Shown one piece after another: positions 38,071 through 58,951 of a stretch of 64,000 nt of DNA; the first letter of the stretch is position 1, and the number at the start of each line of letters is the position of its first letter. Below the pieces are notes generated by a model that saw nothing but the letters and a program-made list of their open reading frames with translations, did no database searches and was not told where the DNA came from. Origin of the DNA: Amycolatopsis coloradensis (lineage in GTDB: Bacteria > Actinomycetota > Actinomycetes > Mycobacteriales > Pseudonocardiaceae); assembly GCF_037997115.1 (NCBI RefSeq), contig NZ_CP150484.1, positions 6,083,547 to 6,147,546 of the forward strand. The letters are read 5' to 3'. Both the position numbers and the translations under genes were made by a program.

Positions 38071-38191
38071 CCGTCGACTTTAACGTCCTCTCATCGGCAT
38101 AGACAGATGTTCTGCGTGTCGGTGCTCGACGAAGGAACGTCCCCCTGATGCGCTGTCGGGCTTGGTGTCCCATCGCACGAGGAGGACGTTC

Positions 38192-39544
38192 ATGGGTAAC
38201 AGTAGTGGGATCTCCCGAGGTGACCGCAACCGCAACACCCGACTGGCCCGGCTCCGCGCGCTGGTCCCCGCCCAGAACGCGATCGTGGGCATCGACCTCG
38301 CCGACACCAAACAGATGGTCGTCGTCACCGACCACGACTCGAAAGTACTGGCACGTAAAACATTCCGCTGCCGCGCTTGGGATCTCGGGACTGCTTTGGA
38401 CTGGGCAGCCCAGCGGGCGAGCACGGCCGGGCACACCGGAATCACCGTGGCATGCGAACCGACCGGACACCGGTGGCGGGTACTGGGCCAACTCGCCGCC
38501 GACCGTGGCATGCCGTTCGTCTGTGTCCAACCAGCGATGACCTCCTGGTCGCGGCGCGCCGAAGACCTCACCCACGACAAGACCGACGAGAAGGACGCCG
38601 TGCTGATCGCTCGACTGACCGCGCAACTTCGCTGCTATATCCCCGAACCTGTCGACGAGGTCTGGGGCAGGCTGCGCCACCTCGGCGCCCGTCGCGAGCA
38701 GCTGATCGTCGACATGGTCAGCCAGATCCAGCAGATCCGTGCCCTGCTCGAATGCGTGTGGCCCGCCGCCCTGGACACTGCCCGCCGGCCCTTCCGATCC
38801 CGCACCTGGGTGGCAGCCATCAGCGTGATCTGCGGCCGTGACCACGGCGAGCTGACCCGAACCCGCCGACTGGGCCCGGCCCGCTTCGAACAGGTCGTCC
38901 GCCGCGAGATCACCCGCCGCGGCGGCCAGAAACCATCGTTGCGGATCGTGCGTGAGCTGTTCGCCGCGCTCGAGGATCCGCGCGGTGTGATCGCCCACCG
39001 CGCAGGCGCGCTGGAACGGGTGCACCTGCTGCTGGCCGACTGGGCCGAGGACCAGCGTCGACTGGCCGACACCGAGACCCGCATGCTCACGGTGCTCGAC
39101 AAGCTGCGGCTGACCGACCTGGTCACCTCCATCGTCGGCCTCTCCGCGATCGGCGCCGCGGCGATCCTGGCCGAGACCGGTGACCTCACACGATTCACCT
39201 CGGCTCGCGCCGTGGTCAAACACGCCGGCCTCGCGCCCCGCGAGAAGACCTCCGGCACCTTCACCGGACGGACCAAACTCACCGGTCAGGGCCGACCCAG
39301 TCTGCGCTTGGCCGCGTGGCGCGCAGTCTGGGGCGCCCAGCGCGCCAATCCCGTCTACGCCGCCCGCTACCAGCACCTGACCAGCCGCACCGAGAACAAG
39401 CTCACCCCCACCCAGGCGCAAGCCGCGATCGCCGCGAGCATCCTGCGCCACCTGCACGCCGTCATCACCACCGGTTGCCGGTGGGATCCCCAGACCGCAA
39501 CACACGGCACCCGAATCTCGACACCATCGGCTATCGCCGCCTGA
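38192..39544 (+). CDS. IS110-family DEDD transposase (copy 1)
   Basis: The ATG at 38192 has GAGGAGG seven bases upstream, better than the in-frame ATG at 38162. The 450-residue protein has the RuvC-like catalytic residues Asp35 (GIDLADTK), Glu89 (ACEPTG), Asp132 and Asp135 (KTDEKDA). Its C-terminal transposase_20 domain carries the family serine, probably Ser354, in KTSGTFTGR. A helical linker lies between. In IS110 proteins the DEDD site and the serine act together, guided by a noncoding RNA from the element, to recombine donor and target. A long minus-strand frame covers the same bases and is only a shadow. Confidence 0.93.
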   Translation: MGNSSGISRGDRNRNTRLARLRALVPAQNAIVGIDLADTKQMVVVTDHDSKVLARKTFRCRAWDLGTALDWAAQRASTAGHTGITVACEPTGHRWRVLGQLAADRGMPFVCVQPAMTSWSRRAEDLTHDKTDEKDAVLIARLTAQLRCYIPEPVDEVWGRLRHLGARREQLIVDMVSQIQQIRALLECVWPAALDTARRPFRSRTWVAAISVICGRDHGELTRTRRLGPARFEQVVRREITRRGGQKPSLRIVRELFAALEDPRGVIAHRAGALERVHLLLADWAEDQRRLADTETRMLTVLDKLRLTDLVTSIVGLSAIGAAAILAETGDLTRFTSARAVVKHAGLAPREKTSGTFTGRTKLTGQGRPSLRLAAWRAVWGAQRANPVYAARYQHLTSRTENKLTPTQAQAAIAASILRHLHAVITTGCRWDPQTATHGTRISTPSAIAA

Positions 39545-39750
39545 GCGAGGCGGCCACCAAGCAGACGGTCGGGGCGAGCCCCACGCGGCATTGAGACACC
39601 TCGTGATCTCGACGCTCATCATGGGCAGCCCGTCCGTCGTCGAATCAACCCGATTACACGCTGCTGGGATCACCCCCATGACCGCTATGCAGGGACCGAC
39701 GACGGACGAGGCACCGACCATCCGCTTGACACAGAACGCCTTACGCTGAT
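39545..39750 (+). ncRNA. Candidate bridge/seek RNA region of IS copy 1
   Basis: The right noncoding end contains a perfect 12-bp stem, CGTCCGTCGTCG (39631-39642) with CGACGACGGACG (39697-39708), enclosing 54 bases. Two short stretches relate to the target: GCGGCATTGAG at 39585-39595 resembles the target GCGGCATGAG with one extra T, and CGCTCATCA at 39613-39621 is the exact complement of TGATGAGCG at the right junction. Elements of the IS1111 type encode their guide RNA downstream of the transposase, and the left end here is too short for one. The RNA is an inference. Confidence 0.5.
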
Positions 39751-39866
39751 GAGCGGACGTGCTGGTTCGTTTGTGCCACCGCATCTTCGACCGGTGGCGG
39801 CTGCAGCGCTCGACGAGCTCCACGACCTTGGTGCTCCACACCAGCACGTGAGGGCGCGACGACGAC

Positions 39867-45600: not shown

Positions 45601-45722
45601 GCCTGCTCGTCTGTCGACCCACCTGCGGCATAGACAGATGTTCTGCGTGTCGGTGCTCGACGAAGGAACGTCCCCCTGATGCGCTGTCGGGCTTGGTGTC
45701 CCATCGCACGAGGAGGACGTTC

Positions 45723-47075
45723 ATGGGTAACAGTAGTGGGATCTCCCGAGGTGACCGCAACCGCAACACCCGACTGGCCCGGCTCCGCGCGCTGGTCCCC
45801 GCCCAGAACGCGATCGTGGGCATCGACCTCGCCGACACCAAACAGATGGTCGTCGTCACCGACCACGACTCGAAAGTACTGGCACGTAAAACATTCCGCT
45901 GCCGCGCTTGGGATCTCGGGACTGCTTTGGACTGGGCAGCCCAGCGGGCGAGCACGGCCGGGCACACCGGAATCACCGTGGCATGCGAACCGACCGGACA
46001 CCGGTGGCGGGTACTGGGCCAACTCGCCGCCGACCGTGGCATGCCGTTCGTCTGTGTCCAACCAGCGATGACCTCCTGGTCGCGGCGCGCCGAAGACCTC
46101 ACCCACGACAAGACCGACGAGAAGGACGCCGTGCTGATCGCTCGACTGACCGCGCAACTTCGCTGCTATATCCCCGAACCTGTCGACGAGGTCTGGGGCA
46201 GGCTGCGCCACCTCGGCGCCCGTCGCGAGCAGCTGATCGTCGACATGGTCAGCCAGATCCAGCAGATCCGTGCCCTGCTCGAATGCGTGTGGCCCGCCGC
46301 CCTGGACACTGCCCGCCGGCCCTTCCGATCCCGCACCTGGGTGGCAGCCATCAGCGTGATCTGCGGCCGTGACCACGGCGAGCTGACCCGAACCCGCCGA
46401 CTGGGCCCGGCCCGCTTCGAACAGGTCGTCCGCCGCGAGATCACCCGCCGCGGCGGCCAGAAACCATCGTTGCGGATCGTGCGTGAGCTGTTCGCCGCGC
46501 TCGAGGATCCGCGCGGTGTGATCGCCCACCGCGCAGGCGCGCTGGAACGGGTGCACCTGCTGCTGGCCGACTGGGCCGAGGACCAGCGTCGACTGGCCGA
46601 CACCGAGACCCGCATGCTCACGGTGCTCGACAAGCTGCGGCTGACCGACCTGGTCACCTCCATCGTCGGCCTCTCCGCGATCGGCGCCGCGGCGATCCTG
46701 GCCGAGACCGGTGACCTCACACGATTCACCTCGGCTCGCGCCGTGGTCAAACACGCCGGCCTCGCGCCCCGCGAGAAGACCTCCGGCACCTTCACCGGAC
46801 GGACCAAACTCACCGGTCAGGGCCGACCCAGTCTGCGCTTGGCCGCGTGGCGCGCAGTCTGGGGCGCCCAGCGCGCCAATCCCGTCTACGCCGCCCGCTA
46901 CCAGCACCTGACCAGCCGCACCGAGAACAAGCTCACCCCCACCCAGGCGCAAGCCGCGATCGCCGCGAGCATCCTGCGCCACCTGCACGCCGTCATCACC
47001 ACCGGTTGCCGGTGGGATCCCCAGACCGCAACACACGGCACCCGAATCTCGACACCATCGGCTATCGCCGCCTGA
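45723..47075 (+). CDS. IS110-family DEDD transposase (copy 2)
   Basis: This 450-residue protein reads the same as the copy 1 transposase, with the DEDD residues in GIDLADTK, ACEPTG and KTDEKDA, and the serine in KTSGTFTGR. The intact frame and the identity of the two copies point to recent transposition. The ribosome site GAGGAGG is also kept. Confidence 0.93.
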   Translation: MGNSSGISRGDRNRNTRLARLRALVPAQNAIVGIDLADTKQMVVVTDHDSKVLARKTFRCRAWDLGTALDWAAQRASTAGHTGITVACEPTGHRWRVLGQLAADRGMPFVCVQPAMTSWSRRAEDLTHDKTDEKDAVLIARLTAQLRCYIPEPVDEVWGRLRHLGARREQLIVDMVSQIQQIRALLECVWPAALDTARRPFRSRTWVAAISVICGRDHGELTRTRRLGPARFEQVVRREITRRGGQKPSLRIVRELFAALEDPRGVIAHRAGALERVHLLLADWAEDQRRLADTETRMLTVLDKLRLTDLVTSIVGLSAIGAAAILAETGDLTRFTSARAVVKHAGLAPREKTSGTFTGRTKLTGQGRPSLRLAAWRAVWGAQRANPVYAARYQHLTSRTENKLTPTQAQAAIAASILRHLHAVITTGCRWDPQTATHGTRISTPSAIAA

Positions 47076-47281
47076 GCGAGGCGGCCACCAAGCAGACGGT
47101 CGGGGCGAGCCCCACGCGGCATTGAGACACCTCGTGATCTCGACGCTCATCATGGGCAGCCCGTCCGTCGTCGAATCAACCCGATTACACGCTGCTGGGA
47201 TCACCCCCATGACCGCTATGCAGGGACCGACGACGGACGAGGCACCGACCATCCGCTTGACACAGAACGCCTTACGCTGAT
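47076..47281 (+). ncRNA. Candidate bridge/seek RNA region of IS copy 2
   Basis: This has the same noncoding end as in copy 1, offset by 7,531 bp. The 12-bp stem lies at 47162-47173 and 47228-47239, and the target-like segments at 47116-47126 and 47144-47152. The case for an RNA rests on structure and target complementarity, not on expression data. Confidence 0.5.
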
Positions 47282-47429
47282 GAGCGGACGCTTCTGGTTC
47301 GTCCGATTTACGGCACCTTCGAACGACGGCACGCTCGACGAGCGCCACAGGCTTGGTGCTCGTGCGCCCATCCCAGCAAGAACGCAGTCTCGCTTCTCTT
47401 CTCATACGCGGCTGGCCGAGTCGATCCAT

Positions 47430-48680
47430 TCACCTCTTCATCGCGTCGAGCGCACGCACGAAGGCATCTTCGGTAACGACGGGAACTCCTAGAGCCCGTG
47501 CGTCCTTCGCTTTGCCGGATAACGAATCCGGGTCCGCGGCGGCAACGACTCGGGTCTTCCTGCTCACCGAGCTGATCACCTGAAGGCCGAGGGCCAGCGC
47601 TTCTGCTGTGAGTTCGCTGCGGTGACGGCGCATCGTTCCTGTCAGAACGATCCGGTCACCAGGGCGCAGCACAAGCCCTCCGATACTGACCTCCACGACC
47701 TGGGACCGAGGCCGCTCCACCCGCGTGGACTGTTCCTCACGAAGAACGAGATCGACCTCATCGGCATCAAGGCCGAGAAGGGCAGCTACCGCTTCCAGAT
47801 CTCGTCGCTCTCCCACGGCCACGTGCCCGTCCGCCCAAGCGGCTTGCGCGAGGCTGCGTAAGTAGCCGTGGTGCAACTGGATGACCTCCGCCTTGTGCAG
47901 GCCGAGGTCATGAGCGACGTCGATCAACGCGTCGGCTTCCGAAGCCGAGATCTGCCGATCAAGCAAGGCTCTATCCAGGACGGCGAGGTACGCGTCGACC
48001 TCGGGCTTCCTCTCACGAGGGACACGATCCACCAACCGGGCAAGGAAGTGCGACCCGGCATGACCGGCCGCCTGCCGGTGTACTGGCTTGACCAGACCTT
48101 GAGGCATGGAGGGCAGATCCCCATGCACGTCCGGCAAGCCCCGAAGCCGAAATGAGGCCAACTCTGGGGCGCCTTCTACCAGCCGACCGAACAACTGGGC
48201 GGTGGCAAGGGCGTCACCGAGCGCAGTATGGAACCGCACGCCGTCCACGCCGACAGCCTTGCAGCACTCGGCGAGCGACCTTCGCATCCCAGGGAAAACG
48301 TCGCCTGCGAACCTCATGGTGCACACGCCGCCGGACAGGTACCGAGACAGATCCACATCCAAGCGGGCGAACTCGGCACGCAGGTGCATGGCATCGAACG
48401 GCAGGTTGTGCGCGACAGGAACACGACCTCGGAAGAGCTCGAGCAAGTCGCCGGCGAACTGCTCGAACTTCGGAGCACGACGCACCTCGGCGGCGCGGAT
48501 GCCATGGATGGCCTGAGGGCCGAGATCACGGTCCGGGTTCACCAGGGTCGACCACTCGCCGGTGACCTCACCGGAGAAATCGACATGGACGACCGCGATC
48601 TCGGCAATTCGATGTCGGAAGCCGGGTCGTATCCCCGTCGTCTCGGTGTCGACGACAGCAAACCCACGAAGCGACGTCAT
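47430..48680 (-). CDS. DEDDh exonuclease with TerB-like and BRCT domains
   Basis: The 416-residue protein has three parts. The N-terminal exonuclease (1-165) carries VVDTETTG (Asp and Glu of Exo I), AHNLPFDAMHL (Exo II) and HTALGDALATAQL (Exo III, with His five residues before Asp). The middle (about 215-310) has the helical TerB-like motif DRQISASEADALIDVA and AWADGHVAVGERRDLE. The C-terminal BRCT (about 335-416) starts GDRIVLTGTM and ends VPVVTEDAFVRAL. This suggests a 3'-5' exonuclease recruited to DNA lesions, like the epsilon subunit family. It overlaps the upstream gene by 4 bp. Confidence 0.92.
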   Translation of the reverse strand: MTSLRGFAVVDTETTGIRPGFRHRIAEIAVVHVDFSGEVTGEWSTLVNPDRDLGPQAIHGIRAAEVRRAPKFEQFAGDLLELFRGRVPVAHNLPFDAMHLRAEFARLDVDLSRYLSGGVCTMRFAGDVFPGMRRSLAECCKAVGVDGVRFHTALGDALATAQLFGRLVEGAPELASFRLRGLPDVHGDLPSMPQGLVKPVHRQAAGHAGSHFLARLVDRVPRERKPEVDAYLAVLDRALLDRQISASEADALIDVAHDLGLHKAEVIQLHHGYLRSLAQAAWADGHVAVGERRDLEAVAALLGLDADEVDLVLREEQSTRVERPRSQVVEVSIGGLVLRPGDRIVLTGTMRRHRSELTAEALALGLQVISSVSRKTRVVAAADPDSLSGKAKDARALGVPVVTEDAFVRALDAMKR

Positions 48681-49378
48681 AACGGCAGCCGGGTAGCCAT
48701 GCCTGCCCGCACCGACGCAAGCCAGGACGGCGGCAACGGCTCGGCTTCCCCGTGCGCGTCACGAACGTAGCTTCGCCTCTTCACGCCTTCGGTCTCGACC
48801 CATTGCCGGACCAGCCATCGCAGTACCCCGACCGCCGTCAACGCGGCGGAACCGACCTCTGTCGATCCCACGACGGCAGACACCTTCGACAAGGACCGTA
48901 GGTCATCGAATCCGACGACCTGCTCGACTGTGAGGTCGCGGCTCCATTCCAGGTCGGCCACGTTCTTAAGCTCACGCTTTGCCGCCGAGACGGTGCTGTC
49001 GTACGCCACCCGACGGCTAACGATATCCGCGAAACACTGAAGCGGTGAAAACAACTGCGCTGTCCACCACTTCTCCGCATCGACACCAGCAGCCTTGGTG
49101 ACTCTGTCGAGCACCTCATCCAGCTCTCCCGGAACGACCGCAGCGACCGACCGTCGCTCGACCAAGGTCAACAAGCGACGCGCCTCGTCCCGCGACACCA
49201 GCAAACGATCGAGCTGGTAGATCCACGCTCCGACCGGCATCCCTTGCGGACTCACATGCCAGACCGCGACTGACTCCTCTCCTGCCACTCCAGGACCGAC
49301 CACCACCACAGCGCTCGCAGGAGCCGACAAGGCGACCGAGCCCCCTACCACGCCTTCCATCCCGTCAACGTCGCTCAC
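48677..49378 (-). CDS. Hypothetical partner of the exonuclease (DUF6218-like)
   Basis: The 233-residue protein has a small beta-rich start (ASAVVVVGPGVAGEESVAVW), then helices with RDEARRLLTLVERR and EKWWTAQLFSPLQCFADIV. The size and the place right before a DEDDh-BRCT exonuclease fit the actinobacterial family labelled DUF6218, of unknown function. The ATGA overlap means the two are co-translated. I assign the label with modest confidence. Confidence 0.65.
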   Translation of the reverse strand: MSDVDGMEGVVGGSVALSAPASAVVVVGPGVAGEESVAVWHVSPQGMPVGAWIYQLDRLLVSRDEARRLLTLVERRSVAAVVPGELDEVLDRVTKAAGVDAEKWWTAQLFSPLQCFADIVSRRVAYDSTVSAAKRELKNVADLEWSRDLTVEQVVGFDDLRSLSKVSAVVGSTEVGSAALTAVGVLRWLVRQWVETEGVKRRSYVRDAHGEAEPLPPSWLASVRAGMATRLPL

Positions 49379-49491
49379 GCGCCACCCACCCTCGAATCAG
49401 TCGAACGACTCAACAAGTCGTAGAGCGGGTCAACCTGTTACGCGAACTTCTCCGACCGAAACAAAACTGTGGCCGTAGGTCCAGCACCTAG

Positions 49492-49788
49492 TGGGCAGCG
49501 ACCCGGCGCTTCGTCCGCGCCGAGTCCCTGCCCGGACACACCCTCGGCACACTCGGACTCCACGTGCGGTTGCCCGACGGCAAGCAGATCGTCCTCAGCA
49601 GCGACGCCGCCCACCTGCGCAGCAACATCGACCAGACCACCGGCATGCCTCTGGACGTCTCCAACCCCGACAAGGAGACCAGCCTGCGCAAACTGAAAAT
49701 CGCCAGCCGACCGGACACCACGATCTGGGTCAACCACGACCCCGACGACTGGAAACTCAACCGACCCAACGGACGTCAGATCGCCTGA
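49492..49788 (+). pseudogene. Metallo-beta-lactamase-fold lactonase, C-terminal remnant
   Basis: The frame opens after a TAG at 49489 with no start and reads LPGHTLGTLGLHVRLPDGKQ, then SSDAAHLRSN and DTTIWVNHDPDDW. These are the third His (PGH), the bridging Asp (SDAAH) and the last His (NHDPDDW) of AttM/AiiA-type N-acyl homoserine lactonases. The N-terminal HxHxDH site is missing, so the enzyme is dead. The C terminus is complete. Confidence 0.7.
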
Positions 49789-49963
49789 TCCCGTCGGCTC
49801 AGCAGTACGCTCAGGCGTTCGGCTTGAGCCACTTCAAACGATCCCACCCACGGTTGTCCCGTCCAGCGTCGTCTCGAGACCGTGGTCTCGCCCCACCGTT
49901 CGGCATCTGCCCCGAGCAGGGCAGGCCAGTAACAGTCGGTGACAAGATCCCGACCTTCATCTC

Positions 49964-51139
49964 ATGCCACCGCGACCACGATTTATGCACATGGTCGGCG
50001 CTTCTCGCGATGAAGCGCAGCTTGCCGTGCGCTTGTACAACGACTCGTCGGAGGTTCGTTCCTTCGAGGGCTTCGTAGTCCACATGCACCTTGCCTGGCT
50101 TTACCTCCTGCACGCCGAACTCACTCGGGACAGCATCGACTTCCGGTACTGGCGCACTCGGGGACGAGCACGGCGGCTGGAACGGGTCGACGGTGAACCG
50201 AAGCGCTGGGATCTAGCCACTTGCGTGCGGCATCGCTGGCCCGACAAGGCCGCCGCGGTGCGGGCCAATCTCGAGTTCTTCGTTGCGCTGCGCAACAAGA
50301 TCGAGCACCGGTACGCCCGCGAGCAGCAAGCACTCGCCGTCGCCGTAAGCGGCCAGAGCCAGGCGCTCCTGCTCAACTACGAGCAGGAACTCACTGGCCA
50401 ATTCGGAACCGGATCGTCCCTCGCCACCCGTCTGCGATTCCCGGTCTTCGTCGGAAGCTTCACCGACGAGGGCGAACGCACCCTGCGACGGCTGCGCTCA
50501 CAGCTACCCGTACCGCTGCGGACCTTCATCGCCGACTACGACGCCGGCCTCGACGCATCCGTCGCCCGGGACCCTCGGTACGACTTCCGGCTGCGAGTGC
50601 TCCAGGAACTCGCGCCCAAGGACCCGGACGCGCTCGCGGTCCAGTTCACCCGCTATGACGACCTGACCGACGAACAGCGGGCCGCCGTCGAGGCGATCGG
50701 CAGAAAAGGCTACGTAGTCGTCCGCGAACAGAAACGCCCGGTCGTCGGACACGGGTTGCTCCGGCCGACACAGGCCGCGCAAGCAGTTCAAGACCGGATC
50801 CCGTTCGTATTCAACACCAACCACTTCACAACCGCCTGGAAAAAGATCGGTGTGCGGCCGAAGGTGGGAGATCCGCATCCCGAGAGGACCGAAGAAAAGT
50901 ACTGCCTCTACGACGAGCCACACCACGATTACGGCTACACCGAGGCCTACATCGCCAAGCTTGCCCGCGAGTGCGCCACCGAAGCAGGCTTCCGCGCCTT
51001 ACTGGGGACCGCCCCGAGAGACAAAGTGACCGGAGGCTGGGTGGGATCGCCACCACTCAACGCGACACCTCCCTGGAGACGATCAGCCCCGTCTGCAGCA
51101 CAAGAACCTCCGGACATGGACACGATGCGCTCAGCCTGA
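49964..51139 (+). CDS. DUF3644/HEPN protein, putative defence RNase
   Basis: From ATG 49964 the protein has 391 residues; ATG 49985 is also possible and neither has a ribosome site. The N-terminal domain is that of DUF3644: DEAQLAVRLYNDSSEVRSFE and FVVHMHLAWLYLLHAEL. Then comes the HEPN motif R-x4-H in LRNKIEHRY (Arg110, His115), the active site of HEPN ribonucleases. The C-terminal half has FTRYDDLTDEQRAAVEAIG. Proteins of this kind occur in abortive-infection and toxin contexts. No antitoxin nucleotidyltransferase is adjacent. The role in defence is inferred. Confidence 0.78.
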   Translation: MPPRPRFMHMVGASRDEAQLAVRLYNDSSEVRSFEGFVVHMHLAWLYLLHAELTRDSIDFRYWRTRGRARRLERVDGEPKRWDLATCVRHRWPDKAAAVRANLEFFVALRNKIEHRYAREQQALAVAVSGQSQALLLNYEQELTGQFGTGSSLATRLRFPVFVGSFTDEGERTLRRLRSQLPVPLRTFIADYDAGLDASVARDPRYDFRLRVLQELAPKDPDALAVQFTRYDDLTDEQRAAVEAIGRKGYVVVREQKRPVVGHGLLRPTQAAQAVQDRIPFVFNTNHFTTAWKKIGVRPKVGDPHPERTEEKYCLYDEPHHDYGYTEAYIAKLARECATEAGFRALLGTAPRDKVTGGWVGSPPLNATPPWRRSAPSAAQEPPDMDTMRSA

Positions 51140-51232
51140 CATCTCCGAAGACAAAGATCGCGCTGCACCGTCACAGACGGGTGATTCAGAGATCGCAGGG
51201 GTTGCGCGGACCGAACCAGGCGAGACCATGGC

Positions 51233-51574
51233 ATGGTGGGACGACGCGTCCCCGGGACCGCACGGGCCGTCCGGCCTCGGGAGCAGTTGATCGCGGCACT
51301 GGCGCCCGACAGCATCCAGCGCCACTCCCAACCTGCCCGGCTACCGGCGTTGCCCGAGCCGAGCCTGCCGGTGGAATCAGGCCCCGAATTGTTGATCGGC
51401 GCCGTACGCATTGACCGGACCGGCCGCGTCAACGAACGCCTCCTCTTACGCGCGCTCGGCTGGCACCCAGGCCGCCGGCTCTCACTGGACACGCTGCGCG
51501 GGCTGATCGTGATCGCACCCGACAAATCCAGCCAGCACGTGGGTTCTCTCGCGATCAAACGACAGGCTCCGTAG
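51233..51574 (+). pseudogene. AbrB/SpoVT-like DNA-binding protein, C-terminal part missing
   Basis: From 51233 the frame gives 113 residues with LLIGAVRIDRTGRVNERLLL and RALGWHPGRRLSLDTLRGLI. These resemble the first swapped-hairpin domain of actinobacterial AbrB-like regulators, which have two such domains (a second RGxxxLPAAxR part is expected). Here the sequence ends at SSQHVGSLAIKRQAP without the second domain. It is probably truncated. Confidence 0.45.
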
Positions 51575-51994
51575 ACGGTCTGGCCGTGGTCGGTCACCAC
51601 CTTCATCCCCCAGGCAGCGGTCGAACCTCGGCCGCCGGCGGACGGCGACCTGTCGGAACGCGAGTTCGTAGCTGGATTCACCTGCTCGTGGCCGCTCGAC
51701 GGACACGTCGGCGACAAGGCCCTGATGACGATGAACGTGGCCATGCCCACTACGAGAACCGCGCAGAACGCGATGACGATCACCAGTTTTCGCTTCCGGA
51801 CCCGAGACGGAGGCTCAGTCCGGCACGGCGGTTGGGCAAGGTTCAAACTCTGGTCGTCGACTACACCCCAAGATCATCGACATACCTCACTCCTTGAGCG
51901 GAACCATGCCCGTGATCGAGAACGTATCGTTGTGTGTCGGTGTTGATCACGCGTAGTGCGACCAGGTCGACGTAGAGGGCGCATAAGGAAAATG
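51575..51994. other. Gap before the 458-residue gene, possible membrane-protein stub
   Basis: On the minus strand 51846 to about 51690 reads a charged start and one strong helix (KLVIVIAFCAVLVVGMATFI), like the N terminus of a secreted or anchored protein, then loses coding character. The promoter of the next gene must be here. Nothing else is seen. Confidence 0.4.
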
Positions 51995-53371
51995 ATGTTG
52001 AAGCCCGCGAGGCACGTGCTGAGGGATCTAGCGCAACGCTCGAACGTCTCCCTCCATTCGGATCCCGTTTTGGTTGGCGCTGTGGCCGCCGCAGCAGCTG
52101 ACGACGACGAAAGGCGCGCAAAGAAGCGGGAGGATGAGAGCAGCATCAAAGACGACGACGAAGTTCTACGGCGGAAGCCCGAACTCCATCCGATACGCGC
52201 GTGGGGAGACAAATCCTCGCAGCTGACACCGTGGGACGTGCTGCATGTACTCGGCAGAGCCATCGCATTGGCCAGACGAGGCGCCGCGCGCGGACTCGCC
52301 GAGCACTGGGGCGCGCTGAAGTACAGCCAGGCGCTGACCGGCGACACAGGTTCCTTCCTGAAGCTATCCGCTGAGGGCAAGGACACGGCGGACTACTACA
52401 AGGCCGTCCAGTCGAGCGAGCTCGGTGTCGGCTTCGCACTGGTACTGGCTAGGCGGATCCTGGCGCAACGATATCCGGATCGCGTCGTCTCCATCGTGCC
52501 CGCGGACACGGCGCTGCGCGCAGGCTGGGCCTTGACCAGCAGAGACAAGGGACAACGACAGAACTACCGGTACCGCCCGCAGTTCTTCGCCGAGCTGTGG
52601 AAGCCGGGAGCGCCTTCTCTAGTACTGCCGATCGCCTGTAAGGGCAACCACAGCAACGCCGCACACTCCCACGTCCAACTCGCGTCTGCATCGGCTCACG
52701 TCGAGGCGGTGCACGTCGGACCATGGAATGAGACCCCCTGCCTGATCTTCAGCACTGAGCTGCCCCTGGATGGCCACGTCACCGTGCACGCCCTCTGCGC
52801 TGAGGGAAGCGGCGGCTGGCTGGCCAATCCCAGCGCTGAGGGTAGCGACCTGGATGCCGAGCTCAGCGACGTCAACCATTTCCCCCAAATCCACCTGCCT
52901 TCCAACGGTGACGAAGCCCGTATCTCGATCCCCGGCTTCCATATCACACCGGATCACTACGAATGGTTCGGGCGCGTGCTCGCACGAACGGCCGCCGCGG
53001 GACTGACAGCCTTCGCCGGCAATGGCGAAAAGACCACCCAGTACCTGACCGAGCGCCAAGGACGGAAGCACTTCATCGGCTTCACGCACGCGGCCACCGG
53101 TAGCGTGCAGGACGCGAATCACACTCTCCTCGGCAAACGCTTCGTCGGCACCGACCACGTCTTCCGACTGAACGGCACCCGCGTTGAAGCCTTCTCTGGC
53201 GTAGATGCCGCACTATTCGATCTCCTGGCTCACGGACGAGTGACGCAGTACCGCCACAAGATCTACGAGCACCGCTCCGCCTGGCCCAGCGGTTCCTGGG
53301 ACAACTCATGGGGAGGCCCGGTATCAATTCACCCGGATGGAACCGTACTCGCCATACGCCTGCTCCCCTGA
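51995..53371 (+). CDS. Unrecognised protein, 458 residues, next to Ub-like remnants
   Basis: The second of two adjacent ATGs, at 51995, has AAGGAA at good spacing. Residues 20-60 form an acidic, Lys-rich coiled segment (DDDERRAKKREDESSIKDDD). The middle has ALRAGWALTSRDKGQRQNYR, then a strand-rich part with LVLPIACKGNHSN that could be a nuclease-like core in which A-x-K stands where E-x-K is usual; this is speculative. The end is strand-rich with YEHRSAWPSGSWDNSWGG. I cannot assign a family. It ends just one base before the GTG of the E1-like fragment, so the two may be coupled. Confidence 0.7.
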   Translation: MLKPARHVLRDLAQRSNVSLHSDPVLVGAVAAAAADDDERRAKKREDESSIKDDDEVLRRKPELHPIRAWGDKSSQLTPWDVLHVLGRAIALARRGAARGLAEHWGALKYSQALTGDTGSFLKLSAEGKDTADYYKAVQSSELGVGFALVLARRILAQRYPDRVVSIVPADTALRAGWALTSRDKGQRQNYRYRPQFFAELWKPGAPSLVLPIACKGNHSNAAHSHVQLASASAHVEAVHVGPWNETPCLIFSTELPLDGHVTVHALCAEGSGGWLANPSAEGSDLDAELSDVNHFPQIHLPSNGDEARISIPGFHITPDHYEWFGRVLARTAAAGLTAFAGNGEKTTQYLTERQGRKHFIGFTHAATGSVQDANHTLLGKRFVGTDHVFRLNGTRVEAFSGVDAALFDLLAHGRVTQYRHKIYEHRSAWPSGSWDNSWGGPVSIHPDGTVLAIRLLP

Positions 53372-53372
53372 C

Positions 53373-53855
53373 GTGACAATCCGTTGCAGGGACGCAAGGC
53401 CGACCGCATCAACTTCTTGGCCGATCGAGACCAACGTCGACGAACTCACCGACATGGACTTCGTGTTCCTCACCTTGACCGACGGCACCGCAAAGAAGGC
53501 GATCGTCGCCGCGCTCGAAGCGACCGAAATTCCCTTCACCGACTGCGGCGTCGGCCTCTACCGAGTCGACGACGCTCTGGCCGGCCAGGTCAGGACCACG
53601 ACCAGCTCTCCCGATCATCGAGACATCGCCCGCCAAAACATTCCGTTCTCCGACGGCGAACTGGACGAGTACGACCAGAACGTCCAAATCGCCGAGGTGA
53701 ACTGCCTCAACGCCGTGATGGCCGTACTCAAGTGGAAGAAGCTCAACGGGATCTACCTCGATCTGGACCGCGAGTTCAACAGCGTATACGTGCTGGACGG
53801 CAACACCATGATCAACGACACCGGGAAAGCCGATGCGGACCACGATCACACATAA
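53373..53855 (+). pseudogene. ThiF/E1-like enzyme, C-terminal half
   Basis: The frame is open from GTG 53373; ATG 53454 is the first ATG. It reads TNVDELTDMDFVFLTLTDG, then EIPFTDCGVGLYRVDDALAG, DIARQNIPFSDGELDEYDQN and AEVNCLNAVMAVLKWKKLNG, ending DREFNSVYVLDGNTMINDT. This is the second half of the E1/ThiF fold of bacterial ubiquitin-like systems. The N-terminal adenylate-binding GxGGxGS part is missing, replaced by the 458-residue gene. The next gene overlaps its end by 23 bp. Without the ATP site it cannot activate a Ub-like protein by itself. Confidence 0.72.
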
Positions 53856-54264
53856 GTTCGTCGAGACGGTCCCCGACCATGTCGAGGACGGCATCGTCTA
53901 CGTCAGCCTCACGTACGCCACCGCGGTCCACCGCTGCTGTTGCGGATGCGGCCACGAAGTCGTCACCCCCCTGCACCCCAAGCAATGGTCAATCACCTTC
54001 AACGGCGAGGCGATCTCACTATCGCCATCCATCGGCAACTGGAGCTTCGCCTGCAGGTCCCACTACTGGATACGCGCTGGACACATCCATACCGCCCGCA
54101 CGTACACCCGCGCAGAGATCACACACCTACGCGCTGATGACCAAGTCCTGCTCGATCAGCACTACGCTCACCGACCGCAGAGGCCACCCGACGACCCGAC
54201 CGAGTCCAGTCCTAAATGGCGGGGCGGCATCAAGGCGTGGTTCCAACGCCTGCGCCGCCCGTGA
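53833..54264 (+). CDS. DUF6527 protein of ubiquitin-like operons
   Basis: The 143-residue protein has the DUF6527 signature: ETVPDHVEDGIVYVSLTYAT, then HRCCCGCGHEVVTPLHPKQW and LSPSIGNWSFACRSHYWI. The Cys-x-Cys-Gly motif and the distal Cys and His suggest a zinc site. The family is known from operons with ThiF/E1, multi-ubiquitin-like and E2-like proteins, where its function is not settled. Its ATG overlaps the E1-like fragment. The C-terminal tail is Pro- and Arg-rich and variable. Confidence 0.85.
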   Translation: MRTTITHKFVETVPDHVEDGIVYVSLTYATAVHRCCCGCGHEVVTPLHPKQWSITFNGEAISLSPSIGNWSFACRSHYWIRAGHIHTARTYTRAEITHLRADDQVLLDQHYAHRPQRPPDDPTESSPKWRGGIKAWFQRLRRP

Positions 54265-54758
54265 CACTGTGTCCACACGTAGCTAGGTGGTTCGGACGCG
54301 GGCCGGGATCGATGTCCGAAGTGAGTGCTCAGATTACCGGTCCATCAAGCGAAGGTCGTGATGAGAACCGGCGGGAACTTCCTGGTCTACACATGTCGAC
54401 CGCTTCAAGACGCCATTCGAACAACCTCTGAGCATTCCCGCAGTACCTAGAAAGTCCATACCGCCCGCGCTGTTCACCAGCAGAGCATCCAGCCCGCGCG
54501 CCGTCGCGCGAAGATGCCGAGGACGCATTAGATCTCTGCGAGGCCCTATTGGACTACATGTTTGAGCTGACCGCGAAATTCACTGCGTTTCGACAACGAC
54601 GCAAGACGCCCATGGCCACCGAAGACAAGCAGTGATAGGCCCTCCGCGGCTGCTGAGTGGCGCAACGGTCTCGAGGTCATGTATCGTCCACACATGACCT
54701 CCCAGAAATTAGGAGATCTGCCAAGGATTTGTGACCGCGTCCCCCCTCGGACACTCTT
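54265..54758. other. Gap with a possible short remnant
   Basis: A plus-strand frame ending at 54633 reads REDAEDALDLCEALLDYMFE then LTAKFTAFRQRRKTPM. It looks like the C-terminal helices of a longer protein, perhaps DUF4145-like, whose upstream part is gone. Nothing else is visible. Confidence 0.35.
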
Positions 54759-55475
54759 TTACCCCACGGATCTTCGGGTCCGTGGGGTAATTCTCGACGG
54801 GCACGGAACACCGCGGTCGTTCAGCTCCCGCGCCAGTGACGCTACCGATCGACCGCGAGCCCGCTCGGCGAACATCCATCGCACCCACTGCACGGCCCCC
54901 GGATCCGGCTCCAGCACATGCAGGCGCCGGCCCCATCGCGCGTGGATGGCGTTCGGATGGGGCCCGCCGTCGGCCAACCGATACCCATACGGCGGACGAC
55001 CACCAAGAAAACGCCCCTGCAACCGCGTCTGCGCACGCATGGCTGCCATCACCCGGTGCCGAGCCCTCACCACCTCACGCTGCGCCTGCGCACCCAGCAA
55101 CGTCATCAACGCCAAATGAACCGGACTGTCCAACTCGACCGGTCCACCGGCCTCGGGCAACCACACTTGCACACCGAAGGCATTCAGCCGTGCGACCACC
55201 TCGCGGAACTGGTCGCCGTGGAAGGCCCGCTCGTATTCCCCCACTACCACGGCATCGAACTCACGGTCCCGATCCTCCGCGGCCGCCAGCAACGCAGACG
55301 CTGCCGGGCGCTCCCCCCACGACCACCGCCGCGACCGGCCCTCATCGAAAAACTCGACCACGACCTCACCGACGCCCTCGACCAACTCGTCCGACACCGC
55401 GCGCTGCCAGGCACGCGACGTCTGCGGGTCCTGGAATTCGCTGGTCGACATCCGACCGTAGAACGCAAACCGCAC
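54759..55475 (-). pseudogene. Serine recombinase, C-terminally truncated
   Basis: From GTG 55475 the product has 238 residues. The resolvase domain begins VRFAFYGRMSTSEFQDPQTS with the nucleophile Ser10, and has VVVGEYERAFHGDQFREVV and LLGAQAQREVVRARHR. The recombinase domain starts at GGRPPYGYRLADGG and stops after LARELNDRGVPCPSR. Large serine recombinases are 450-600 residues and need the zinc ribbon and coiled coil, which are lost. The coding frame ends within a perfect inverted repeat. It probably once integrated the accessory DNA here. Confidence 0.75.
54760..54789. repeat. 11-bp perfect inverted repeat at the recombinase end
   Basis: TACCCCACGGA (54760-54770) and TCCGTGGGGTA (54779-54789) flank the loop TCTTCGGG. 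There is no T-run on the proper side for a classic terminator of the recombinase strand, though TTTT precedes it on the plus strand. It marks the point where recombinase homology ends. Confidence 0.6.
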
Positions 55476-55943
55476 ACCCCCTACCACCCGACCAGGAGCC
55501 CGCGGCGAACCACGACGACGAGTCGCGACAGCCTCCACAAACCCCGCACCAGCCAACCCGCCCATCCCGGCCCCTTCCATCGACCCGAAGCCGAGACCGC
55601 GCGAGCACTGACCGATGACGAGAGACGACCAAGCATCGCCCGAACAGATCAACGACCGAAACTGCCCGATCCCTCGGACGTGTAAGACCACCTCCGGCGG
55701 CTCGATGCCCTCGATCATTCACGTCCGAAATGATGCGCGCCGGCATGCCTGACGCACCGTTGGCCCAATGGCCGGAGACGACCTGCGCTTTCCTGACCAT
55801 TCCGAGCACCCTGACGCTGCCCGGCGCGGTTGTCGAAACGCGCGGGACGAGAGCGGGGATCTGAGCGGCATGGCAAGAGGGCGCCTGCTGCGTCAAGCAC
55901 CGAAGAATGTTCAATTTCGGGTACGTGCTACGTCTCCGGCGCT
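55476..55943. other. Featureless stretch upstream of the recombinase
   Basis: I see no coding segment with family resemblance here. The recombinase promoter should lie near 55480-55560. The rest shows no repeat or hairpin. Confidence 0.35.
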
Positions 55944-56231
55944 TCACTCACTTGAAAACAGATCGTTTCCTCGCGGTGGTTTCGGAATGCTCCGCGCCGC
56001 AGCCGAAACGGGCAGGACCGCTGAGGCTGTCAAGTCATCGACCGTGATGAGCGGACCAGCAGCGATTCGGTCCAGCAGCTCCCGCTGCGCGGGTTCAAGT
56101 TCGAGCTGAAAGAACGACGAACGCGGGACAAGCTTGCCGTCGCGCAGTCCCGCCATGAGCCCGACGCACCGCTGGACGGGGTCGAGTCCGGCGTTGATGG
56201 CGGGCACGATCCCGCCTCGGACCACGAGCAC
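55944..56231 (-). CDS. Hypothetical fragment
   Basis: The frame reads LSREPGLSRQDVLVVRGGIV then INAGLDPVQRCVGLMAGLRD and FFQLELEPAQRELLDRIAAG. It is open back to about 56318 without a clear start. The composition looks like real coding sequence but I cannot identify it. It may be a remnant. Confidence 0.3.
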   Translation of the reverse strand: MLVVRGGIVPAINAGLDPVQRCVGLMAGLRDGKLVPRSSFFQLELEPAQRELLDRIAAGPLITVDDLTASAVLPVSAAARSIPKPPRGNDLFSSE

Positions 56232-56354
56232 GTCCTGGCGACTCAGTCCGGGCTCGCGGCTAAGGCCGACATACCGGCTGGGCGTATCTTTGACGTCGGG
56301 GCGTCCGTTTCGACGTGTTCAGAAGTAAGGCGAGTTAGTAGCACCGGACATGTC

Positions 56355-56406
56355 AAGTGCTCGATAATGTCTTGTTGCACCAACAAGTGGACATTATCGA
56401 GCACTT
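56355..56406. repeat. Perfect 17-bp inverted repeat (large hairpin)
   Basis: AAGTGCTCGATAATGTC (56355-56371) and GACATTATCGAGCACTT (56390-56406) are exact reverse complements. The 18-base loop holds a smaller stem, TTGTTG with CAACAA around CAC. It is clearly less GC-rich than its surroundings. It lies 34 bp from the broken end of the pRiA4b ORF-3 gene. It could be a terminator, but the arm length is unusual, and an element end or recombination site fits equally well. Confidence 0.7.
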
Positions 56407-56439
56407 TCCGTGGCTGGCCGCTACGCCCGATCTTCGACC

Positions 56440-56844
56440 TCACTGGCCGTCGTCCGGAGCTTCGCCTCGGCCCGCCACGCGGACCGGATACCTGATCGCC
56501 GGGTCGCGGCGGAGGACCCTCACCAGGGTGATCTCGTGGCACCAGGCATCGCCGACGTCGTAGAGGTACCGGACGGGCACACCGACGGTGAACACGTCGG
56601 CCACCGTGACGACCGCTTCGTCCGCCCCCACGGCGAGCCGCGAACCGTCGGACCGGTCGTCACCCAACGCGAACAGGTGCAAGTGGTCGTCGCGCCAGCC
56701 CATGACCATCTGGATGACTTCGTGCAGGCCTCCCAGCGTGATGGACGCCAGGACCTGCACTCGCCGCCAACACTCCGGTACGACGTCGATGACCCGGATC
56801 TCAAGCTGGAAGACCTCGTCGTCCGCGACCGGCCGACCGTTCAT
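56440..56844 (-). CDS. pRiA4b ORF-3-like protein, C-terminally shortened
   Basis: From ATG 56844 the protein has 134 residues with the family pattern: FQLEIRVIDVVPECWRRVQV, LGGLHEVIQMVMGWRDDHLH and VRYLYDVGDAWCHEITLVRV. Members are 160-200 residues and end with the motif PPEDxGG; here the end is VAGRGEAPDDGQ. The last part is therefore lost or altered, near the 17-bp inverted repeat. The family is common on plasmids and near recombinases. Its function is unknown. Confidence 0.8.
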   Translation of the reverse strand: MNGRPVADDEVFQLEIRVIDVVPECWRRVQVLASITLGGLHEVIQMVMGWRDDHLHLFALGDDRSDGSRLAVGADEAVVTVADVFTVGVPVRYLYDVGDAWCHEITLVRVLRRDPAIRYPVRVAGRGEAPDDGQ

Positions 56845-57097
56845 ACGCCCTTTTCTCCCGCCCTGATCATTCCTTCATGCTAGCGGCGACGACAACGGGA
56901 GGAAGTGATTACCTTGCACAGCAACGGAACTGGAGTTCACAACACTCGACGGCCCGATCTCGCAGACAACAAGGTCGATTATACTGCGGAAATCGTAACC
57001 ATCTCCCCTTCGGCGCCCGGACAACCGTCATCACTCATAGGGCATACTGAGCGGGTCCCTTCGAAGGAGTCCCTCACCACGATGCAAGACTGGGCGG

Positions 57098-57937
57098 ATG
57101 TTCCCTCAAGACGCCGCGCGCAACGCAGCGCGTTACCTCGGAATCGCGGATAGATTGCTGCCGGGGAAGATCACCGGATTCTACGTCGTCGGCTCAGTCG
57201 CCCTCGGCGCCTGGCGACCGAAGCGCAGTGACATCGATTTCGTCGCCTTCGTGCACGGCGATCTCGATGACCGGCAGCTCCGCCGACTGCGCGCCCTGCA
57301 CGTTCTGGGCAATGCGGCGACGGTCGGCCGATCGTTGCTCAGGGCCGATTCCAGCCTTCCCGGCACCATGAACGGCACGTTCGTTTCGATGGCGGACGTC
57401 CAAGAACCGGTGACGAAGATCCACGCCCTGGCTTCACACAGCGGATGGACTTTCACCCGAGGAGGCGGCTTCGACGTCAACCCCGTCTCGTGGAAGCTGC
57501 TGCAGCAAGGAGGAATCGCCCTACGGGGCCCGGATCCGGCCGATCTCCGACTGGACCCCGAACCGGAGCGGTTGCGCGCGTGGAACCTGGAGCAGCTCAA
57601 AGTCCATTGGAAGAACTGGGCCGAGCGGCTCCTGTCCGGTAACGCACCTAGGAAGCCGCTCGTACCCGCCCACCGCCTCGCCGTCTCCCGCGTCCTCGGT
57701 CCGCCACGTCTGCACCACACCCTCGTCACCGGCGATCTGATCTCCAAGGAATCCGCCGCCGAGTACGCGCTCGACACCTTCGGACAGCGCTGGCTGCCTC
57801 TCGTCCGGGCAGCGCTGGCGCAGCGCGAGGGCGAGCCGTTCCCCGTTTCCCCGCAACCCCGGGAACTCGTCCGCATGGCGGGTGAATTCACCCTCGAAGT
57901 GGTCGCCAGCGCCGAAGACCACCCAATGCCGGGGTGA
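57098..57937 (+). CDS. Nucleotidyltransferase, AadA-like (DUF4111)
   Basis: The 279-residue protein has the Pol-beta nucleotidyltransferase motif VVGSVALGAWRPKRSDIDFV, with GS and the DxD metal site. The C-terminal helical domain resembles ANT(3'')/DUF4111 (ISKESAAEYALDTFGQRWLP). Such enzymes adenylylate aminoglycosides or other substrates. The start at 57098 has only weak ribosome-site context. In the 253 bp before it I see no repeat. It is convergent with the AraC gene. Confidence 0.85.
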   Translation: MFPQDAARNAARYLGIADRLLPGKITGFYVVGSVALGAWRPKRSDIDFVAFVHGDLDDRQLRRLRALHVLGNAATVGRSLLRADSSLPGTMNGTFVSMADVQEPVTKIHALASHSGWTFTRGGGFDVNPVSWKLLQQGGIALRGPDPADLRLDPEPERLRAWNLEQLKVHWKNWAERLLSGNAPRKPLVPAHRLAVSRVLGPPRLHHTLVTGDLISKESAAEYALDTFGQRWLPLVRAALAQREGEPFPVSPQPRELVRMAGEFTLEVVASAEDHPMPG

Positions 57938-57967
57938 ATCGCCGGTGGAACTCGATCCAGGAAGAGG

Positions 57968-58951
57968 TCAAGCCCTGGATTCTCGCAAATCCTGGAACCA
58001 CTCTTCACGGAACTTTCCCGGCGGGTTTCCGTACTCCGACCGAAACGCCCGGCTGAATTCCGACGGCTGCACGAACCCGTTCCGGAGCCCGATCTCCCGG
58101 ACCGGTAACGACCGCAACGCCGCATCGCGCAGATCGCGCCGGGCGTTCTCGAGCCTGCGCCGACGAATCCACCTCGACGGGGTGCTCCCGTTGTTTTCGA
58201 ACAACCGCTGCAGGTAGCGAACCGAGATGTGGTGGCTCTCCGCGATCCGACGCGGGGTGAGCCCGGAGCTGCCGAGATTGCGGTCGATATGCGCACTGAT
58301 CCGGGTGAACAACCGATGTTGCCGCCTCAGGGAGCCGGCTTGCGCGGTCACCTGACGGTGTCGTTCGACCACGGCGGTGGCCAGGTACAGCGCGGCCTCT
58401 CCGGTCCGATCGGCCTCCGACGCACTCAGTCCTCGCGCTTGTGTCGTCGCCTCGACGAGGAAATCGCGAAGCAGCACACCGGGACCGGCCACGTCACACA
58501 CCTCCAGCCGGGGAACCAGGGGGCGCGACGGAGCCGATGAGGCGATCGAATCCGGTATGGCCAGAACGAGTCCCGCGGCCTCGACATCGGCCGACTGCGC
58601 GCTCACGGCCAGCGGCCCCGGAGTGGTGCAGAGCGCGAGTTCCGCGGCACCCAGCCGCGCGGCGTCGCCGCCCGTGGCGATCGTGAACACGCCGGACGTG
58701 GGCATGAACAGCGCGAAGTGTTCCTCGTCGACCTTCAGTTCGTGCGCCTTCACCACTGGCTCACGAAAAATGATCTCCTGAACGGTGACACAGCCCAGTT
58801 CGGTCCTCCGTACCCAGTGATCGTCATGACCGGCTTGTGTCGCGCGCACACCACCCCGGGGAACGGGCACCCGAGTCCCAGCGCTCGCCGGCCGTCCACT
58901 GCCCCGCCGGCCACCGCGTCTCGCCGTCTTCTCCCCAGTTTCGCAGACCAT
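57968..58951 (-). CDS. AraC-family activator
   Basis: From ATG 58951, with GGGGGA nine bases upstream, the protein has 327 residues. The N-terminal part is the AraC_binding_2-like domain found in regulators of aromatic or alkane catabolism (AlkS/ThcR type): LMPTSGVFTIATGG and LALCTTPGPLAVSA. The C-terminal double helix-turn-helix has LTPRRIAESHHISVRYLQRL and EIGLRNGFVQPSEFSRAFRS. It lies divergent from the catabolic operon across 946 bp and is the likely regulator of it. Confidence 0.9.
   Translation of the reverse strand: MVCETGEKTARRGGRRGSGRPASAGTRVPVPRGGVRATQAGHDDHWVRRTELGCVTVQEIIFREPVVKAHELKVDEEHFALFMPTSGVFTIATGGDAARLGAAELALCTTPGPLAVSAQSADVEAAGLVLAIPDSIASSAPSRPLVPRLEVCDVAGPGVLLRDFLVEATTQARGLSASEADRTGEAALYLATAVVERHRQVTAQAGSLRRQHRLFTRISAHIDRNLGSSGLTPRRIAESHHISVRYLQRLFENNGSTPSRWIRRRRLENARRDLRDAALRSLPVREIGLRNGFVQPSEFSRAFRSEYGNPPGKFREEWFQDLRESRA

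Follow-up and report, generated by a model that had tools for sequence, protein, structure and literature searches.

The ubiquitin-like operon and its intact relatives

Operon type 6e of Iyer, Burroughs and Aravind (2006) comprises genes for a ubiquitin-like (Ubl) protein, an E1 and a cysteine- and histidine-rich, potentially metal-binding protein, and in some bacteria its E1 carries another N-terminal domain in place of JAB (PMC1779556). The operon that combines Multi_ubiq (PF14452), a DUF6791/ThiF E1 (PF20590 and PF00899; PRK06153) and DUF6527 (PF20137) is likely to be type 6e, with the Cys/His pattern of DUF6527 lying near, while not identical to, the signature printed for that type (PMC1779556). 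The term DUF6527 was not found in the literature searched. The intact E1 also shares the ThiF adenylation domain with two bacterial E1 enzymes, BubCD (Citrobacter protein, profile E 2.9e-7) and Cap2 (profile E only 0.03). In both cases the match is limited to the adenylation domain, with DUF6791 outside it.

Here, we compare these systems with a locus in Amycolatopsis coloradensis. The window is the whole 64,000-nucleotide stretch analyzed, positions 6,083,547 to 6,147,546 of a single-contig, 9.06-Mb genome, and the close named genomes at this locus are Amycolatopsis. A search of related genomes for the intact operon, as proposed in the first-pass annotation, recovered it complete in two members of this family, G232 and G249: Multi_ubiq of 91 aa, a 400-aa E1 containing DUF6791 and ThiF, and DUF6527 of 142 aa. 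The G232 operon matches PF14452 (E 3.4e-20), PF20590 (E 8.3e-50), ThiF (E 8.8e-12) and PF20137 (E 1e-25). Intact E1-DUF6527 pairs occur in six further family genomes. Plasmid records yielded 113 with a relative; in the two that were read (Alphaproteobacteria and Bacteroidota), multiubiquitin is followed by ThiF and then DUF6527, and the genes overlap. The E1 and DUF6527 genes overlap by 23 bases in G232 (L056:7895-7917) and by 20 bases on plasmid NZ_CP021406.1. DUF6527 occurs here with multi-ubiquitin-like and E1 proteins, as had been stated at first pass.

E1 matches were obtained in 10 of 390 Pseudonocardiaceae genomes, one being a match to flanking sequence alone. All eight other E1 loci of the family hold open frames of 402 to 491 aa with DUF6527 behind; the exceptions are the window and the 22-residue flank match in G133, and no truncated E1 was found elsewhere in the 390 genomes. 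A search of the phylum (396 genomes) added one E1 match in a 402-aa frame and another in a 472-aa frame; one of the two has an internal TGA.

Genes at the window locus

The features of the locus, in window coordinates, are as follows.

51992 to 53371, plus strand: unrelated upstream gene, 459 codons from the ATG at 51992, of a widespread Pseudonocardiaceae family
53372 to 53426, plus strand: 3' flanking sequence of the upstream gene, which relatives G086 and G133 conserve and G136 conserves more weakly
53424 to 53432, no strand: recombination junction, where upstream-gene homology stops and E1 homology starts
53427 to 53855, plus strand: C-terminal 142 codons of an E1 (DUF6791-ThiF, PRK06153 family), with the N-terminal DUF6791 and the nucleotide-binding half absent
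53833 to 54264, plus strand: intact gene for a DUF6527 protein of 143 aa; its 23-base overlap with the end of E1 also occurs in intact operons
54759 to 55718, minus strand: serine recombinase gene with its 3' end truncated; relatives carry ~0.8 kb more between the positions matching 54791 and 54793

The locus has in common with the Multi_ubiq/E1/DUF6527 operon the C-terminal region of E1, DUF6527 and the 20- to 23-base overlap. Unlike that operon, it lacks E1 codons 1 to 258 and a Ubl gene, none of which lies upstream of the E1 fragment within the window, and an unrelated gene stands in their place. Most of the domain that intact E1 shares with BubCD and Cap2 is likewise missing from the remnant. 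Rfam gave zero hits within 47000-58000; in 51800-55800, no promoter-like site was found and terminator-like sites were no commoner than chance.

The first-pass annotation had read the open frame 53373-53855 as the second half of an E1/ThiF protein whose ATP-binding half was missing, and profile comparison bears out this assignment. Residues 19 to 149 of the frame match positions 257 to 388 of 392 in NCBIfam PRK06153.1-4 (E 8.6e-43), and residues 19 to 160 are 68% identical to codons 259 to 400 of an intact 400-aa E1. Because the fragment is truncated, the PRK06153 match scores under the whole-protein cutoff; no Pfam match was found for the fragment. Only the extent of the E1 part needs correction, to a start at 53427. 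Given the exact placement of the junction described below, residues 1 to 18 (53373-53426) are the 3' flank of the neighboring gene, placed in the E1 frame by accident, and not E1. A frame-based search recovers them in G133, where no E1 accompanies them.

The fragment is a C-terminal region of the PRK06153 family, without a full ThiF domain or an N-terminal DUF6791; beginning at codon 259, it enters the adenylation domain past the GLGGTG motif. From what is established for ThiF/E1 enzymes, it should not bind ATP, and it would be unable to activate a Ubl because the start of the Rossmann fold, including the GxGGTG motif, is missing.

The DUF6527 gene is complete, as first described (PF20137, E 3.7e-25), and lies directly behind E1 with the overlap seen in G232, which is normal for intact operons. 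Its product is 56% identical to DUF6527 of the intact operon and has a conserved Cys/His pattern (C35-x3-C39-x34-C74-x2-H77); structure prediction was poor (pLDDT 54, from 9 sequences).

Position and origin of the junction

A single block from 47412 to 53432 of the window is 95.5% identical to G086, and 51389-53432 is 95.6% identical to G133. Exact identity to these relatives extends to 53426, with homology to G086 and G133 over by 53432 at the latest, and E1 homology to G232 and G249 begins at 53426. The best placement of the junction is 53426/53427, with an ambiguity of at most a few bases and little or no microhomology at the join. Past the junction, G086, G133 and G136 run on together with a different sequence; theirs is therefore the ancestral arrangement, and the join in the window is derived. 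Of the genomes searched, the window genome alone carries this junction, which formed after its lineage parted from G086 and G133 (dS ~0.12 to G086 at the upstream gene).

We consider it highly probable (roughly 94%) that the locus is what is left of a known bacterial ubiquitin-like operon after recombination or deletion inside E1, in a defense-gene island. Illegitimate recombination or a deletion within the E1 gene would have placed DUF6527, together with the final 142 codons of E1, directly behind the 3' flank of the unrelated gene, thereby breaking the Multi_ubiq/DUF6791-ThiF E1/DUF6527 operon and inactivating it. The near lack of microhomology suggests that the event was illegitimate. DUF6527, if still made, would be without a partner, and the pathway would therefore be dead in this strain.

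Upstream of the junction, PADLOC reports two candidate defense families, PDC-S19 (DUF3644, 49964-51139, plus strand) and PDC-S48 (47430-48680, minus strand). Together with a DUF6218 gene (minus strand, 4-base overlap), PDC-S19 and the exonuclease/BRCT-like PDC-S48 make up a block of defense-island genes (47430-51139) that is conserved in G086. Farther upstream lie two IS110-family copies (38095-39836 and 45626-47361), 98.6% identical and in direct orientation. Downstream, the 3' part of the serine recombinase gene has been lost; between the matched stretches, G143 and G101 hold ~0.8 kb more, including the remainder of the gene. The region has thus been rearranged repeatedly, the E1 truncation being one such event.

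Two further elements were observed beside the recombinase gene. A strong hairpin at its end (54759-54792; TTACCCCACGGATC-TTCG-GGTCCGTGGGGTAA), conserved in relatives, is probably its terminator. An element of ~60 bp (54688-54747; ATGACCTCCC...CTCGGACAC) is conserved in G109, G133, G136 and G098 beside differing sequences and, in the window, abuts the recombinase 3' end at a shared CTCGGACAC; it may represent the end of a mobile element or a site of recombination.

State of the remnant

Decay after recombination was one of two explanations offered at first pass. The recombination itself is upheld by the exact junction, while "decay" proved too strong a word: the residual sequence shows no decay in the strict sense. 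The E1 fragment contains no stop or frameshift, and its pairwise dN/dS relative to G232 (~0.31) is similar to that of intact pairs. Tajima relative-rate tests showed no significant acceleration (maximum chi-square 1.5 for E1, 2.9 for DUF6527). Positions otherwise invariant were altered at 5/28 sites in the fragment, compared with 0/23 in G232/G249, 4/27 in G223/G043, 15/38 in G154/G160 and 9/32 in G274. These intact-looking rates do not show that the remnant functions. The join arose after divergence from G086, which is only dS 0.12 away at the upstream gene, so most substitutions probably predate the truncation; recent truncation explains the absence of visible decay, and the open frame needs no function.

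Alternative readings of the locus

The other first-pass explanation was a new functional arrangement, in which the 458/459-residue upstream protein is expressed together with the E1 fragment and DUF6527 and is served by them. The common strand, the open frame and the spacing (the upstream gene stops at 53371, one base before the GTG at 53373, as first noted) speak for such a unit, as does an intact DUF6527 that keeps 26 of 27 lineage-out invariant residues. We nevertheless regard it as very improbable. In a survey of 29 relatives of the upstream protein with flanks of up to 1.5 kb (one shortened by a contig end; six loci with 6 kb), none had E1 or DUF6527 beside it, so that the further cases sought after the first pass did not materialize, and the upstream protein is absent from all eight intact E1-DUF6527 loci. 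No other truncated E1 was seen in ~780 family and phylum genomes, the junction is private among the genomes searched, and the ancestral flank is retained in the closest relatives. Moreover, the GTG and first 18 codons of the frame are flank sequence present in G086 and G133 without E1; the one-base spacing is accidental.

The upstream gene was described at first pass as unrelated, which fits its product: it has no match above cutoff in Pfam, NCBIfam and PADLOC gave none either, and it therefore contains no E1 N-terminal domain. Its family occurs in 59/390 Pseudonocardiaceae genomes, the window's own included, and gave no match on plasmids. Distant relatives (L023, L024, L026-L028 and L031) have a PD-(D/E)XK-like motif, PDYF..VECK, which is degenerate in the window protein (PQFF..ACK) and its clade (PQFF/PQYF..(A/T/S)CK). 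A structural model of the window protein (pLDDT 83) retrieved nothing by Foldseek at E 0.001 or better. VIA-align gave weak matches, among unrelated rows and all at Z 3.4 or below, to TSEN (Z 3.4, rmsd 3.6, 107 aligned), MspI (Z 3.1, rmsd 4.1, 137 aligned) and EcoRV (Z 2.8, rmsd 4.4, 124 aligned). That the protein is nuclease-derived, and possibly inactive, is a reasonable guess and no more. A 369-bp segment of the window (51171-51539) recurs downstream of the homologue of this gene in G086 and G133 (84 to 86% identity). It is very improbable that DUF6527, with or without the E1 tail, was kept after truncation because it acts alone or with the upstream nuclease-like protein.

An assembly artifact, in which the join would be absent from the cell, could account for a junction private to one genome, but this is very improbable. 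The assembly is one contig with 100% completeness and 0.45% contamination, base composition shows no clear step, and the adjacent recombinase also carries a deletion, consistent with real local rearrangement. Least credible of all is trans complementation, with the other E1 half encoded elsewhere: searches of the window's own genome with the missing N-terminal half (a 266-residue query; best E 0.024 over 66 residues), PRK06153 (one place in all, with no second) and Multi_ubiq (best 18.6 bits against a cutoff of 24.5) refute it at the sensitivity used, although a plasmid outside the assembly could still carry that half.

Significance of the remnant

We conclude that the broken operon is an ordinary remnant in the genome and does not represent a new system; nothing in it is new in kind. 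We advise that 53427-53855 be annotated as a partial E1 pseudogene. The case also warns against inferring an operon from a single genome in which genes are adjacent and a frame is open. Its biological weight is small in itself; the locus is a clear example of the turnover of defense islands, with an identifiable breakpoint.
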